From positions 1 to 64,000 of the forward strand of contig NZ_JADHEC010000002.1 in the NCBI RefSeq assembly GCF_015277675.1: a DNA stretch of 64,000 nucleotides, written 5' to 3'. Source of the stretch: Flavobacterium soyangense. Its GTDB lineage: Bacteria > Bacteroidota > Bacteroidia > Flavobacteriales > Flavobacteriaceae. Numbering within the stretch: position 1 is the first letter of the stretch; every line of letters begins with the position of its first letter. Of this stretch, positions 19,404 through 37,675 are shown one piece after another. The position numbers and the translations under genes were made by a program. Below the pieces are notes generated by a model. That model had not been told where the DNA came from, did no database searches, and worked only from the letters and a program-made list of their open reading frames with translations.

Positions 19404-19477
19404 TCCTTCTTAGCTCAGTTGGTTAGAGCATCTGACTGTTAATCAGAGGGTCCTTGGTTCGAGCCCAAGAGAGGGAG
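19404..19477 (+). tRNA. tRNA-Asn (GTT)
   Basis: The 74-base gene folds as a cloverleaf. The acceptor arm TCCTTCT pairs with AGAGGGA, with G as discriminator base. The D arm is AGCTCAGTTGGTTAGAGC, the anticodon loop CTGTTAA gives anticodon GTT, and the T arm holds TTCGAGCCC. CCA is not encoded. Its 3' 18 bases are the left attachment core of the mobile island, so the gene was kept intact by the integration. Confidence 0.96.
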
Positions 19478-19700: not shown

Positions 19701-20906
19701 ATGACAACAGACAATTTCAAAATTCTATTTATTGAAGGAAAGAATAGAAAAAACAAGAAGAATCAATCTCCATTATTTTGCCGACTAACCCTAAATGGGA
19801 ACAGAAAACAGCTTAGCACAGGTATTAATATTGAGTCCGAGCATTGGGATACCAAGAACCAAGTAATTCTAAAATCCCATAAATCTGCAATTCTATACAA
19901 CTCTCAATTGGACAAGATAAAATCTAAGGTCAATAGCATCTACATGATTTTAAGATTACAAGAAAATCCTTTTTCTATTGAAGACATTCACGACAAATAC
20001 TTTGGCAAAGAACTAAAGAAAAGTGAATTCATTCTCTCCTACTACAAACAGTATCTAGCCAAAATTAAAAAACTAGTAGGACTAGAAATCAAAGATAACA
20101 CCTATAAGAAGTTCGTTTATGTAGGCAATCATTTAGAAGCATTCCTGAAATGGAAATACAAGAAAACAGATTACCCTCTAGAAGAATTAAACTTGCAGTT
20201 TCTAAGTGATTTTGACTACTATTTAAAGACCGAGAAGAAGCAAGAGCAAATTACTATCAACAAAACAATTCAAAGACTTAGAACACCCATTAAACAAGCT
20301 ATTTCAGAAGGCTATTTAGATAGAGATCCGTTTATACTTCACAAGTCCAAAACAGTCCGTAAAACGGTTATATTCCTTACTACAGAAGAACTCAAAACCC
20401 TTGAAGAAGCAGTATTGCAACAAAAGAGATTAAGCACCATTCAAGACTTATTTATTTTCTGTTGTTACACAGGATTAGCCTTTAATGAAATGGCGCACCT
20501 AGAGAGGCAGAATATCCAAATTGGATTTGATGACATTAATTGGATTCAAATGAAACGTGAAAAAACACAGCGTCAAATCTCAATTCCAATCCTACCAAAG
20601 GCACAAGAAATCATTGAGAAATACTCAACCGATAGTAACCGCATATTCCCTCCAATAAGTAATCAAAAATTCAATTCTTATCTCAAAGAAATTTCAGCTA
20701 TAACAGGAATCGAAAAAAGATTGACGCACCACATTGCTAGGAAAACATTTGCTTCTACAGTTTTACTGTACAATGATGTTCCAATGGAAATTGTATCAGA
20801 ACTACTTGGTCATTCTAACATGGTTATTACACAGGAAAGTTACGGGAAGGTAGTGCAGAAGAAAGTAAGTGAAGCGATGTCTAATCTAAAGGACAAATTG
20901 AAATAG
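19701..20906 (+). CDS. Tyrosine recombinase / integrase
   Basis: This 401-residue integrase has an N-terminal arm-binding domain (about 1-100), a SAM-like core-binding domain (about 108-210) and a C-terminal catalytic domain. Catalytic residues visible are H344-x-x-R347 (HHIAR), H371 (LLGHS) and the nucleophile Y381 (ESYGKV), plus a lysine near 286-289. The first conserved arginine is replaced by alanine (A260 in YTGLAFNEM), as is known for Bacteroidetes integrases related to IntDOT. It should catalyse integration and excision at the tRNA-Asn core. Confidence 0.95.
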   Translation: MTTDNFKILFIEGKNRKNKKNQSPLFCRLTLNGNRKQLSTGINIESEHWDTKNQVILKSHKSAILYNSQLDKIKSKVNSIYMILRLQENPFSIEDIHDKYFGKELKKSEFILSYYKQYLAKIKKLVGLEIKDNTYKKFVYVGNHLEAFLKWKYKKTDYPLEELNLQFLSDFDYYLKTEKKQEQITINKTIQRLRTPIKQAISEGYLDRDPFILHKSKTVRKTVIFLTTEELKTLEEAVLQQKRLSTIQDLFIFCCYTGLAFNEMAHLERQNIQIGFDDINWIQMKREKTQRQISIPILPKAQEIIEKYSTDSNRIFPPISNQKFNSYLKEISAITGIEKRLTHHIARKTFASTVLLYNDVPMEIVSELLGHSNMVITQESYGKVVQKKVSEAMSNLKDKLK

Positions 20907-21751: not shown

Positions 21752-21872
21752 GAAATAAAATTCGAGGAATTAAGTTATTATTCAGTAGGCATATTTGCCT
21801 ATATTTGAAACTTAGAAACAACAACAGGAATGCTGAAAACTGTATAGAGTAGGCAATATTTTTAAATAAATT

Positions 21873-22670
21873 ATGAAGAATCTAATTTTTATTTTATCAT
21901 TCGCATTTTTGTTTTCATGCTCTAAACCAGAAGACAACCAGCCTAGTAATTCAAATGTCAAATTATTAAAATCGGTAATAGAAACTGGGGAAACATACGG
22001 AAGTTTTAGTTCCTACCATTACGAGAACAATATTCTAACTAAAGTTAATTACGGAGAATTGAACAATTCCATGGCTATCCAACAGCTAGGTTATGAAAAT
22101 AACAAACTAATAAAAATTGCACATGATGATAATTATGCAGGTTTTGGTAGTAGTAATAATAAAGCTGTAAATCCAGAGGATTTCTCATACAACTATAATT
22201 TAAGTAGTTATCCTGTAGAAACAATATCGTACATGACTAGCAGTATTTTTTACAAATCAATTTACAGAGATTATACCTACAATTTAAACAGTCAAAAACA
22301 GATTACTAGTATTGTAGAAAACAAGGATTTAAGCGTCGAATTTGTGTACAATACTACTCAGGTTACAAAACAAAAACAATTCGACAATCCCCCATACGAA
22401 TATACATTTACTTATGATGATAAAATAAATCCCTTCAATGTTCTGTATACAAAATTCGGGTTACTTGACGATTACATTTGTCCCTTATTAGGTCAAAATC
22501 ACATTTACCACTTTTTATCTCCAAACAACATCAAAGAAGTTTATAAAAACGGAATTTTACGTTACAGTTTTATTTATCAATATAACGATGAGAATCAGCC
22601 TGTATCAGTCGTTGCGTATGATTACTCCACTAGTAAAACTCATCAATACATGTACACCTACACAAATTAA
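21873..22670 (+). CDS. Putative lipoprotein of the island
   Basis: This 265-residue protein starts with a signal peptide ending in the lipobox-like FLFSCSK (Cys 16), so it is probably a lipoprotein. The mature part has repeated Y-x-Y/N segments (YHYENNILTKVNY, YENNKLIKI, YNTTQVTKQ, YTFTYDDKINPF) similar to the degenerate RHS/YD-like beta repeats of many Bacteroidetes lipoproteins. No specific family is recognised. It is the first gene of a short unknown cluster on the island and could be a surface protein. Confidence 0.8.
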   Translation: MKNLIFILSFAFLFSCSKPEDNQPSNSNVKLLKSVIETGETYGSFSSYHYENNILTKVNYGELNNSMAIQQLGYENNKLIKIAHDDNYAGFGSSNNKAVNPEDFSYNYNLSSYPVETISYMTSSIFYKSIYRDYTYNLNSQKQITSIVENKDLSVEFVYNTTQVTKQKQFDNPPYEYTFTYDDKINPFNVLYTKFGLLDDYICPLLGQNHIYHFLSPNNIKEVYKNGILRYSFIYQYNDENQPVSVVAYDYSTSKTHQYMYTYTN

Positions 22671-26996: not shown

Positions 26997-27103
26997 CTGT
27001 TATAAAACAAGGAGTTATGCTGAATTTCGATAACCAACTTTTGAGACGGTTTCTCCTTTATCAATAAAACCACTGAAAAAGCTTTTTTGTACAAATTGAA
27101 AAC

Positions 27104-27130
27104 GGAGAGATTATGTCTCTCCATTTTTTA
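27104..27130 (+). terminator. Rho-independent terminator
   Basis: GGAGAGA (27104-27110) pairs with TCTCTCC (27116-27122), with loop TTATG and then ATTTTTT. It ends the ATPase/DUF3871 unit. Confidence 0.85.
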
Positions 27131-27171: not shown

Positions 27172-28011
27172 ATGCTACAAGCCAATATGCAACTAATAGA
27201 CTTAATCAACGATCTTAAGGAATTTAAAAAGCCGGATTATTTAGTGGAGGAATTCTATAGAGAGTATTGTCATTTAAATGATTTGGAGTACAGTGGTAAT
27301 TTTGAAAAATTAGAGAAATTCACATTTTATTACACCATAAATATTTACGGAGAAAAAAAAGGAGAAAAGGAAACTATCTTTTTTGATAATTTCAAATTAA
27401 AAATATTTAAAGATAGATTAATTGAAACTTTAGAGAAATTCAAAAACGAACATAACCTACTTTTTAGTTTACAGGAACAAATTTCGTTTAGTAATAATGT
27501 TCAGAAACTATTAAGAAAAGAACTTACACTTTTTAAATCAGATACCCTATTTAAAACCTACTACAAAATTCTAAATGACTTTATTTCTTTATTTTCAGAA
27601 AAGTATGTAACTGTTAACGATAGGAAAACCAATTACAATTCTTTTAGATACAGCAAACCAAATGCTTATGCTAAAATTAAACTTTTACATGAAACATTAA
27701 TCAATAAATCTTTTATTGGAAGCGAAACTAAATTGATTGATTTTGAAAAAATACTTCAAGACACAGAAGTCAAAACTAAAGTAAGATGGATTGGTCAAAC
27801 AGATGACCTAATCACTTTTATTAAACTTATAAATTCAACAGAAGGCTTTATTGACACTCAAACTGAAAAGTGGCGTATTGCTGAAAAGTGTTTCGTTAAA
27901 ATTGGAGAAAAATCGATGCGATTTCTTACATCCAAAGATTTCAGTAACTACAAAGAGTCTCCTCTTTCAAAATCAAAAATGACATTACTAATAAATACCG
28001 TCTTTAATTAG
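27172..28011 (+). CDS. Hypothetical protein, possibly RteC-like
   Basis: This 279-residue protein is helical and lysine-rich. The C-terminal part (KVRWIGQTDDLITFIKLINSTEGFIDTQTEKWRIAEKCF near residues 205-245) recalls the C-terminus of RteC-like regulators of Bacteroidetes conjugative elements, which have a KWxGxxxxLxELI pattern followed by a helical end. The match is by eye and weak. It sits alone between a terminator and the repeat-rich gap before the RepA-like gene, which would suit a regulator of excision or replication. Confidence 0.55.
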   Translation: MLQANMQLIDLINDLKEFKKPDYLVEEFYREYCHLNDLEYSGNFEKLEKFTFYYTINIYGEKKGEKETIFFDNFKLKIFKDRLIETLEKFKNEHNLLFSLQEQISFSNNVQKLLRKELTLFKSDTLFKTYYKILNDFISLFSEKYVTVNDRKTNYNSFRYSKPNAYAKIKLLHETLINKSFIGSETKLIDFEKILQDTEVKTKVRWIGQTDDLITFIKLINSTEGFIDTQTEKWRIAEKCFVKIGEKSMRFLTSKDFSNYKESPLSKSKMTLLINTVFN

Positions 28012-28205
28012 TTTTTTTAATGAGTTATCTTTAAAGCTTTTAAAATCAACCAATTAACATTTTATTATTCATTATTTACTATACTCTTCCATACTGAGCA
28101 ATAAATTAAATAATTAAAAATCTACTTTCCCATTCTCCCATTTTTCAATACATAATTGAGTTTCATACTGCGGTCATACTGAACTATGTTTTAACACCTC
28201 TTTTA

Positions 28206-28263
28206 ATCATTTGCTTTGCATCAGCCTACTGAAAGAAAAGTAGGATTTGCAAACTAAAATGAT
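28206..28263. repeat. Three-tier imperfect hairpin
   Basis: Nested arms: ATCATTT (28206-28212) with AAATGAT (28257-28263), TTTGC (28215-28219) with GCAAA (28249-28253), and CCTACT (28225-28230) with AGTAGG (28239-28244). The loop is GAAAGAAA. All 18 base pairs are exact. Asymmetric internal loops (2/3 and 5/4) suggest an RNA fold or a cruciform site. Confidence 0.7.
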
Positions 28264-28335
28264 AAAAAATATGAGATAGCTAAATTAATAAAAAAACGAC
28301 ATGTAAGTACGATAGATTTATATGTCCACTCAGAG

Positions 28336-28355
28336 TAGTCGGACTAGTCCGACTA
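28336..28355. repeat. 20-bp perfect palindrome
   Basis: TAGTCGGACTAGTCCGACTA is perfectly symmetric and lies 32 bases upstream of the RepA-like ATG. AGAGTAGTC before it (28332-28340) recurs inside the gene at about 29281-29289. It is a candidate operator or initiator site. Confidence 0.65.
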
Positions 28356-28387
28356 AATAAATTAATAACTCAAAAAGAAAAAGAACA

Positions 28388-29485
28388 ATGGAAAATAAAA
28401 TTAATGATCCATTAAATGGAGGGACAAAATTAGTAGTTAAAGCAATCGATTTAATTAAAAGATTCGAAAATGATCCAGAGCCAATAGAATTATGGAATGG
28501 AGTAATAGAAGGTTCAAAAGGATTGTTTGTAGGGGTCAGTAAAACAGGGAAGACAACTTTCGGAGAGAATCTAGCAATTTCACTCGCCGTGGGAAGCCCT
28601 TCCTTTTATGGTAAAGAAATTAAGGGTGGACCAAAAAAAATACTCTTTATAAATTTGGAGGAAAGCCCAAGAATGAGGTCTTTAAGACTGAAAAAACAGA
28701 TATCTAGATTAAACCCTCAAGAAATGGTGTTGTTTAGTGAAAATTTTTTAACACCCCAAAAAGATTTCATTGAATCTGTTAACTCCGATAAAGACTGGGA
28801 AAAAATGAGAGATTGTATAGAAGAATCCGGTGCGGAAATAATTTTCATTGATAGTCTTACCCATTTGTTTCAAGGACAAATTGAAGCTAGTGAGGCGTGT
28901 AGGAAATTTATTGAAAAATTCAGAAAATATGTGACAAGTTCCCTTAAAACTATAATTGTAATACATCATAACACTAAAGGAAACGATAGACCTATCGAAC
29001 AGGATAGCATTGCAGGAAGCAGAGTAATTCTTCAAGAGTTTGAGTATGCACTAGGCTTTGCTAATATCCCTAATAGTAAGGACAAGTATTCTTGTATGCT
29101 TTTTAATAAATATGTTGAAGTCGATAGCTCGTTGGCGACAATTTACAAGATCGATAAGGATAGATGGATTGAGGGTTTTGGCGAGGTAGAAAAAAGTGTT
29201 TTATACGACATTAAAGTTAAAATTGATTACAGGGAAGACTCGACAAACAAAGATTTAATATACAACTATATTCAAAGTCAGAGTAGTCTGGGTAGTCAGA
29301 TTATACCGACTGGCGACTTAATGAAAACATTTGTACTGAATGACCCAAAAACGATGGCTAAAGACACACTTTTCAGATCTTTAGAGAAATTGAGGAATGA
29401 TGGCAAAATCGAAAATCAAGGAATGGGTAAATATCAACTAAAAATGAAAAAGGATGATGCAGAAGAAGAAACACCTAGTTTATAA
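28388..29485 (+). CDS. RepA-like AAA ATPase (hexameric helicase family, AAA_25)
   Basis: This 365-residue protein has Walker A GVSKTGKTT (49-57), Walker B EIIFIDSLTHLF near residue 158, and an HHNTKG segment near residue 200. These fit the RepA/AAA_25 family, the RSF1010 RepA-type replicative helicase fold. A C-terminal extension after about 280 (winged-helix-like, DTLFRSLEKLRNDGKIENQGMGKYQL) looks like a DNA-binding domain. It probably drives replication of the excised island. Its 3' end overlaps the GIY-YIG gene start by 32 bases. Confidence 0.85.
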   Translation: MENKINDPLNGGTKLVVKAIDLIKRFENDPEPIELWNGVIEGSKGLFVGVSKTGKTTFGENLAISLAVGSPSFYGKEIKGGPKKILFINLEESPRMRSLRLKKQISRLNPQEMVLFSENFLTPQKDFIESVNSDKDWEKMRDCIEESGAEIIFIDSLTHLFQGQIEASEACRKFIEKFRKYVTSSLKTIIVIHHNTKGNDRPIEQDSIAGSRVILQEFEYALGFANIPNSKDKYSCMLFNKYVEVDSSLATIYKIDKDRWIEGFGEVEKSVLYDIKVKIDYREDSTNKDLIYNYIQSQSSLGSQIIPTGDLMKTFVLNDPKTMAKDTLFRSLEKLRNDGKIENQGMGKYQLKMKKDDAEEETPSL

Positions 29486-30110
29486 AGCAACTAACCAAGA
29501 GACAGGAAAAGCTTACATAGGAGTAACAACAAGGACAATGGAAGAGCGTAAGGCAGACCATATTAAAAAAGCCACTAAGGGTACGGGAAGTTATTTCCAA
29601 TCAGCTATAGCTACTTTTGGTCCTGCTGCTTTCCAGTTCGAGCAGATCGACACTGCAACTTCCTCTAATGAGCTAGCTGAAAAAGAAAAAAAATACATTT
29701 TACAGTATGATAGCAAAGAGAATGGTTATAATTCAGATTCTGGTGGGGGATTCAATAAGGTTGTCTACCAGTTTGATTTAGAAGGTAATTTAATAGCTTC
29801 TTTCGATGGTTTAAAAGAAATTCAATTAACACTAGGGCATGACAAACGGAGGGTGTCCAACGCTTGTTTAACAGCTACTGTTTGGAAAGCAAGCTATTGG
29901 TCATATTCCCAAAACAACACCTTTAATCCTGATACAGATAGTAGGAAAAAGAAAGTTTTCCAGTACTCTTTAAATGGTGAAATTTTAGCTCTTTACAATT
30001 CCGTTGCAGAAGCATCACTAGAAACTGGAATATCCAAAACCAGTATCTCACGTTGCTGTAGAGGAGAAAGAAAGAGTTCGTCAGGATTTCTTTGGAAATA
30101 TCTAGATTAA
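29454..30110 (+). CDS. GIY-YIG endonuclease with NUMOD1-like repeats
   Basis: This 218-residue protein starts with a GIY-YIG nuclease domain: LVYKATN (residues 8-14) and AYIGVT (20-25) form the two-strand motif, followed by RTMEERKADH with the conserved arginine and a downstream E in LAEKEKKYI. Two NUMOD1-like DNA-binding repeats follow (VYQFDLEGNLIASFDGLKEIQ and VFQYSLNGEILALYNSVAEAS, about 103-145 and 162-205), ending in a SxFLWKYL segment. This is the layout of a free-standing homing endonuclease. It may spread the island or edit its neighbours. The gene overlaps repA-like in another frame. Confidence 0.88.
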   Translation: MMQKKKHLVYKATNQETGKAYIGVTTRTMEERKADHIKKATKGTGSYFQSAIATFGPAAFQFEQIDTATSSNELAEKEKKYILQYDSKENGYNSDSGGGFNKVVYQFDLEGNLIASFDGLKEIQLTLGHDKRRVSNACLTATVWKASYWSYSQNNTFNPDTDSRKKKVFQYSLNGEILALYNSVAEASLETGISKTSISRCCRGERKSSSGFLWKYLD

Positions 30111-37656: not shown

Positions 37657-37675
37657 CGAGCCCAAGAGAGGGAGC
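37657..37675. repeat. attR core, right 19-bp direct repeat
   Basis: CGAGCCCAAGAGAGGGAGC is identical to the left copy within tRNA-Asn. The bases just inside (ACTGCTAATC at 37636-37645) also resemble the anticodon arm of tRNA-Asn (ACTGTTAATC), so the element carries a partial tRNA 3'-half mimic. Confidence 0.92.

Follow-up and report, generated by a model that had tools for sequence, protein, structure and literature searches.

Organization of the island and of the gap before repA

The window, by which we mean the whole stretch of 64,000 nucleotides of Flavobacterium soyangense DNA analysed here, carries an 18.2-kb Flavobacterium island integrated at tRNA-Asn, whose limits were set by paired 18-bp direct repeats together with an integrase gene (Table 1). 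Within the island, a gene for a RepA-like helicase of the AAA_25 ATPase family (repA) is preceded by a conserved non-coding block, hereafter the gap, and by a fast-diverging gene for a 279-aa protein, while its end is overlapped by a gene for a GIY-YIG endonuclease with NUMOD1 modules. The island cargo between 30405 and 37465 resembles a type I restriction-modification system when its ORFs are read by eye, and the specificity genes of this system vary among related islands. An Rfam match to the DUF805b RNA lies at 21823-21855, before an ORF at 21873, with 36.1 bits compared with a gathering score of 35.6. The 279-aa protein was considered as a known regulator and set aside, as it had no family match and its structural model was unusable (pLDDT 48); none of five members of its group matched Pfam RteC at E up to 10. 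Its gene is missing between an 83-87-aa gene and repA in loci L007, L078 and L079.

Table 1. Features of the island and of the repA region (positions in the window).
Feature	Position	Strand	Remarks
Left island end, 18-bp direct repeat	19460..19477	+	tRNA-Asn 3' end
Integrase gene of the island	19701-20906
279-aa protein gene	27172..28011	+	no family assigned; 35-39% identity in L004-L006
Gap between 279-aa gene and repA	28012..28387	+	conserved, non-coding; 73% A+T
CATACTG copy 1	28090..28096	+
CATACTG copies 2 and 3	28164..28181	+	at 28164 and 28175, spacing 11 bp
Three-tier hairpin H1	28201..28268	+	tiers of 11, 6 and 6 pairs
Weak -7-like element at inner-stem foot	28211..28218	+	AATCTTTG in L004-L006, TTGCTTTG in the window
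Hairpin H2	28298..28326	+	11/12 pairs standard in all four islands
Upstream 9-bp array, candidate iterons	28334..28355	+	two units, AGTCGGACT AGTCCGACT; includes 20-bp palindrome
repA, RepA-like helicase (AAA_25)	28388..29485	+	modelled winged helix, residues 285-351 (29240-29440)
Coding 9-bp array, candidate second cis site	29276..29302	+	AGTCAGAGT AGTCTGGGT AGTCAGATT; codes SQSSLGSQI
GIY-YIG endonuclease gene, NUMOD1 modules	29454..30110	+	overlaps repA end
Right island end, 18-bp direct repeat	37657..37674	+

The gap is shared by three other Flavobacterium islands, L004, L005 and L006, whose RepA proteins are 98, 83 and 79% identical to that of the window, respectively. Together with the window, these form part of a class of ten loci (class A), which further comprises L002, L028, L063 and L078 (the last three being contigs of viral collections), L007 (an Aequorivita MAG) and L079 (from a different genus). 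L002 is a second island of the source genome itself (G000:C20), with a related repA/GIY-YIG module, a RepA 58% identical and a shorter gap of its own. Seven further loci (L087, L088, L089, L090, L091, L094 and L095) constitute class B. At the thresholds used, RepA relatives were found in 2, 5, 8 and 2 genomes in searches of 199, 398, 397 and 296 genomes, these samples overlapping and each including the source genome. None was found in the plasmid records searched, and 20 phage records contained relatives of 24-29% identity.

The original prediction placed a candidate replication origin in the gap, as a gene-free stretch directly before a RepA-like helicase gene with three CATACTG copies, an 18-pair three-tier hairpin and a 20-bp palindrome. 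Indeed, no ORF of at least 60 aa was found in the gap, and all three CATACTG copies are present. This heptamer occurs nine times on both strands of the window as compared with 3.97 copies expected, a count reached in none of 100 shuffles, so that the gap holds three of nine copies of a motif in mild window-wide excess. Owing to this mild excess, and because the gaps of L002, L028 and L063 each have just one copy-like site, CATACTG was set aside as the main iteron. Pairs of the YATACTR type in L004, L005 and L006 show the same 11-bp spacing as copies 2 and 3, TACACT being one member of an L005 pair; copies 2 and 3 could possibly serve as activator or secondary sites.

The three tiers of hairpin H1 were recovered and the predicted pair count was roughly right. 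Its inner stem is kept in three close relatives, L004 using another register, and its outer tier has lost some of its pairs at aligned positions in the relatives; hairpin H2 is nearly invariant, this structural evidence being drawn from few sequences, namely the four islands with this gap. Folded as RNA, the gap surpassed all 100 shuffles (z -4.2), and folded as DNA it was equalled by two of 100 (z -2.0). The 3' half of the gap is strongly conserved across the four islands, compared with only 35-39% identity for the 279-aa gene just 5' of it. Conservation, which had been proposed as a check of the prediction, thus held for the gap as a whole; the palindrome as such was not kept and the outer hairpin tier only in part. 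The weak -7-like element at the foot of the inner stem, judged by the Flavobacterium promoter consensus, is a possible repA promoter; no -33 element belonging to it was seen by eye. Rfam gave no match in the gap at E up to 1, and no plasmid record matched it. The 11 phage records that did so covered only the A+T-rich piece 28014-28079, and neither of two conserved gap motifs was found in viral contigs.

Paired 9-bp arrays of the class A loci

The palindrome, TAGTCGGACTAGTCCGACTA, is exact at 28336-28355, in agreement with the original prediction, and occurs only once in the window, where its expectation is 0.00 for a pattern with N at the two centres. It represents two units of a 9-bp array, AGTCNGACT, of which L004, L005 and L006 carry three units instead of a palindrome. 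Tandem short repeats adjoin the presumed initiator gene, in numbers (two or three units) that are few for iterons. With up to two mismatches, the upstream-array pattern was found in four of 398 Flavobacterium genomes, always at this locus and, in one case, within repA as well. As the reversed pattern, used as a control, matched five of 398 genomes, the fixed place of the pattern matters more than its rarity.

A second array, overlooked in the original prediction, was found inside repA in the window, 0.9 kb downstream of the first and in the part coding for the stretch that separates helices 1 and 2 of the modelled winged helix; the relatives carry theirs at the equivalent position. A strict three-unit pattern matched the upstream array in five and the coding array in seven of the ten class A loci, and also matched outside the module in L006 (at 15472 and 15481) and L007 (at 1460). 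Fifty-one viral stretches (one shared) contained the coding-type pattern, of which L028 and L063 were taken as repA relatives.

When the leader was paired with windows along repA, its best predicted partner was the coding-array region in all ten class A loci (rank 1 of 93-97), with duplexes of -25.6 to -39.6 kcal/mol; this region makes up about one in nine of the ranked windows, a single rank 1 being weak evidence by itself, and rank 1 was also reached by L081, a locus lacking a TAGTC array. Compared with 60 shuffled leaders, z-scores ranged from -6.8 (L005) to -2.4 (window), with -1.5 in L079, and the leader energies of the window and L079 failed to beat every one of the shuffles. In a separate duplex scan the top duplex fell at the array in each of the eight class A loci scanned; in L008 it did not. 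In the most demanding test, with all upstream non-coding DNA compared against repA and the GIY-YIG gene, the coding array was the best match in nine of ten class A loci (not in L078), which beat all 50 shuffles in only four of them (L004, L006, L007 and L079). Among seven distant loci, this whole-upstream test beat the shuffles in L008 and L081, tied in L084 and failed in L080, L082, L083 and L085.

These predicted duplexes could be read as long-range pairing within the mRNA, in which the leader would pair with the coding sequence of repA (or of the GIY-YIG gene), in its 3' part, and control translation or decay. The reverse-complement match between the two arrays is indeed the better one in L002, L028, L063, L007, L079 and L078 (weakly, p 0.03) and slightly so in L006, and the arrays of all five class B pairs identified by the strict pattern (see below) lie on opposite strands. 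In the window, L004 and L005, however, where the units are palindromic, the arrays match better in direct orientation, as they do in the class B locus L081 (42 versus 30). Moreover, matches between lineages were as good as or better than those within lineages, with L007 as a clear exception, so compensatory change is not general, and general compensatory RNA coevolution of leader and coding array was found unsupported by this comparison. These points make mRNA pairing less likely, and we consider it very unlikely. An invertible switch was set aside as well, since the two arrays are presumably too dissimilar.

The codons of the coding array are biased. All 24 Gln codons in the class A arrays are CAG, whereas the rest of repA uses CAG for 17 of 89 (Fisher 7e-14); counting a single locus per lineage gives 13 of 13 against nine of 45 (1.6e-7). 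These tests are partly circular as the array bounds were drawn from the motif itself. In the other island genes tested, 43 of 147 Gln codons are CAG, and the Gln directly before the array is encoded by CAA in the window and L078.

A second array class and the winged helix of RepA

None of the seven class B loci contains a TAGTC array. Instead, these loci share the unit RTGCAGNTA, detected by the pattern RTGCA-N4-RTGCA-N4-RTGCA, which was absent from 200 shuffles of each locus; the pattern was drawn after inspection from some of the loci tested, L095 being independent of its drawing. The coding copy lies in the GIY-YIG gene in six of the seven loci, the contig of L088 ending early. An upstream copy on the opposite strand is found in five loci, among them L095, whereas L088 has its upstream copy on the plus strand and L087 has none. 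The two arrays are 1.6-2.5 kb apart, and in L089 and L095 the upstream array precedes another gene instead of repA. Ala codons within the class B arrays are GCA in 18 of 22 cases against 37 of 83 outside (p 0.002), with bounds defined by the motif and hence the same partial circularity. A third type of unit, seen in L092 (class C), was tried and rejected, as its best partner, at the repA end, lacked significance (equalled by 29 of 300 shuffles).

The conserved hairpins near the start codon and the strong RNA fold of the gap would suit an ordinary promoter with a structured 5' leader of repA, any likeness between the arrays being a by-product of repeat-rich sequence. The recurrence of arrays in two sequence classes with paired placement argues against such an explanation, which we regard as unlikely.

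In order to relate array type to protein sequence, identities were compared over 17 loci. The C-terminal winged helix of RepA is 60% identical within class A, 37% within class B and 22% between the classes, and the RepA core 62, 58 and 40%, respectively. Corresponding values are 62, 52 and 51% for the GIY-YIG nuclease domain, 45, 54 and 46% for its module 1 and 64, 47 and 52% for module 2. Array type thus follows the winged helix of RepA and not the GIY-YIG modules. The RepA core also divides the classes, so this tracking may be plain phylogeny; on the sequences compared, array and RepA type co-vary along a single tree, which does not prove recognition.

In all 17 tabulated loci the end of repA is overlapped by the GIY-YIG-NUMOD1 gene. 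So constant an association suggests that the gene takes part in the module and is not a passing homing gene. As the protein is I-TevI-like and its two modules could span two 9-bp units, it might itself bind the upstream array in autorepression, with the coding array as its cleavage site or former homing target. According to PMC2988022, I-TevI recognises its homing site as well as an operator that resembles it, and free-standing GIY-YIG enzymes cleave nearby genes at distances of hundreds of bp. The present loci resemble that system in their similar sites upstream and in coding sequence and in the I-TevI-like gene itself, but differ in that no intron was identified in them and in that the site type does not follow the nuclease modules. 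In particular, module 1 of L005 and L006 is clearly different while their upstream arrays are nearly identical, and a self-target would need protection. Such binding becomes less likely on these grounds, and we give it little credence.

RepA as candidate initiator and comparison with known systems

The predicted gene directly downstream of the gap fits a RepA-like helicase as far as its structural model (mean pLDDT 63) can tell. The model comprises a RecA fold followed by a C-terminal helix-helix-helix-strand-strand arrangement typical of winged helices. Its top PDB match was RSF1010 RepA (1g8y; Foldseek E 3.9e-9, TM 0.62 on target, rmsd 7.1), closely followed by T7 gp4, Twinkle and KaiC. By sequence alone only Twinkle reached E 0.01 and RSF1010 RepA gave no match. 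RSF1010 RepA is the closest solved fold of the modelled ATPase core; no family match to its RepC initiator or RepB' primase partners was recognised among the island proteins searched (part of the ORFs). Iteron binding is not known for RSF1010 RepA.

The paired arrays suggest a candidate two-part replication-origin or control site. As the best explanation of both arrays, their pairing across lineages, the biased codons of the coding array and the co-segregation of array and RepA type, we tentatively favour binding of candidate iterons by the RepA winged helix, with part of the origin before repA and a second cis site in coding DNA. The gap would then be the upstream cis-acting part of the replication-control module of the island. 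The C-terminal winged helix of RepA would bind 9-bp iterons, of the TAGTC type in class A, and the array just before repA, beside A+T-rich, hairpin-forming DNA, would mark the presumed origin. Through looping, the coding array downstream could either cooperate with the first or restrain it. The iteron or initiator region of the original prediction is partly supported in that the array tracks the RepA winged helix, with two amendments: the better iteron candidate is the 9-bp array and not CATACTG, and an operator fits the same facts.

Autoregulation through operators is the main rival of the iteron reading. The gap would in that case consist of promoter, operator and leader and have no part in replication. 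The upstream array would act as the operator of the repA operon and the coding array as an auxiliary one within the gene, and RepA or another island protein would bridge the two and loop the DNA. Intragenic operators are known, e.g. lacO2. The class A array lies close before the repA start, downstream of the hairpins and the -7-like element, and CATACTG-like site pairs are found 30-60 bp further up. Against this, the class B coding copy is far off and in the next gene, and the -7-like element is weak and appears to have no -33 partner. We judge autoregulation alone somewhat unlikely.

For RepA-bound iterons, several known layouts provide comparisons. In P4, ori and crr form a two-site layout of 9-10-bp repeats read by a winged helix; iterons flank rep in P1 and F, and the lambda origin lies inside gene O. 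Our loci are similar to P4 in having a helicase with a C-terminal winged helix and, presumably, short repeats at two separated cis sites, but no primase domain was recognised, the helicase core is of the RecA and not of the SF3 type, and the second site is in coding DNA. P4 alpha and its cognate ori site are mentioned in PMC6092414. PICI origins, as far as the relevant passages of PMC6092414 and PMC7145576 describe them, consist of two iteron sets beside a helicase-type initiator gene, and by that description they share with our loci an integrated island (as do SaPIs), a helicase-type initiator and two repeat sets. In the same passages, however, the PICI repeats flank a single A+T-rich stretch 3' of rep, whereas the two sets of our loci enclose most of repA or more, the second set being located in repA for class A and in the GIY-YIG gene for class B; furthermore, no phage induction or packaging genes, as in PICIs and SaPIs, were identified here. 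The minimal replicon of pRN1 needs cis DNA on both sides of the replication operon, as stated in PMC4234260.

Extended to a family of Flavobacteriaceae islands, this would mean bipartite origin or copy control, with RepA winged helices reading 9-bp iterons both upstream and in coding DNA, often with the coding array on the opposite strand. Branches would have switched iteron and winged helix together, and the coding array would have moved between repA and the GIY-YIG gene. Such a generalization is possible, though we hold it on the doubtful side. If true, a coding array relocated from gene to gene would give a clear example of a DNA signal superimposed on protein code. The predicted iteron set and its co-segregating recognition domain offer a directly testable initiator-origin pair. 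No paper on this paired-array layout was found in the literature searched, and replication of integrative islands in Bacteroidota is, in our impression, little studied.

Outside the gap, a second conserved non-coding element was observed at 27010-27085, right after an 87-aa gene and at the same place in 11 of 11 aligned sequences. No Rfam match was obtained for this element. RNAalifold predicted 11 pairs in it, two of which have both partners exchanged (GGAG/CTCC becoming GCAG/CTGC in L008 and L078). A terminator-like hairpin with a T run lies beside it at 27104-27129, and the element is a candidate for a new structured RNA of these islands.
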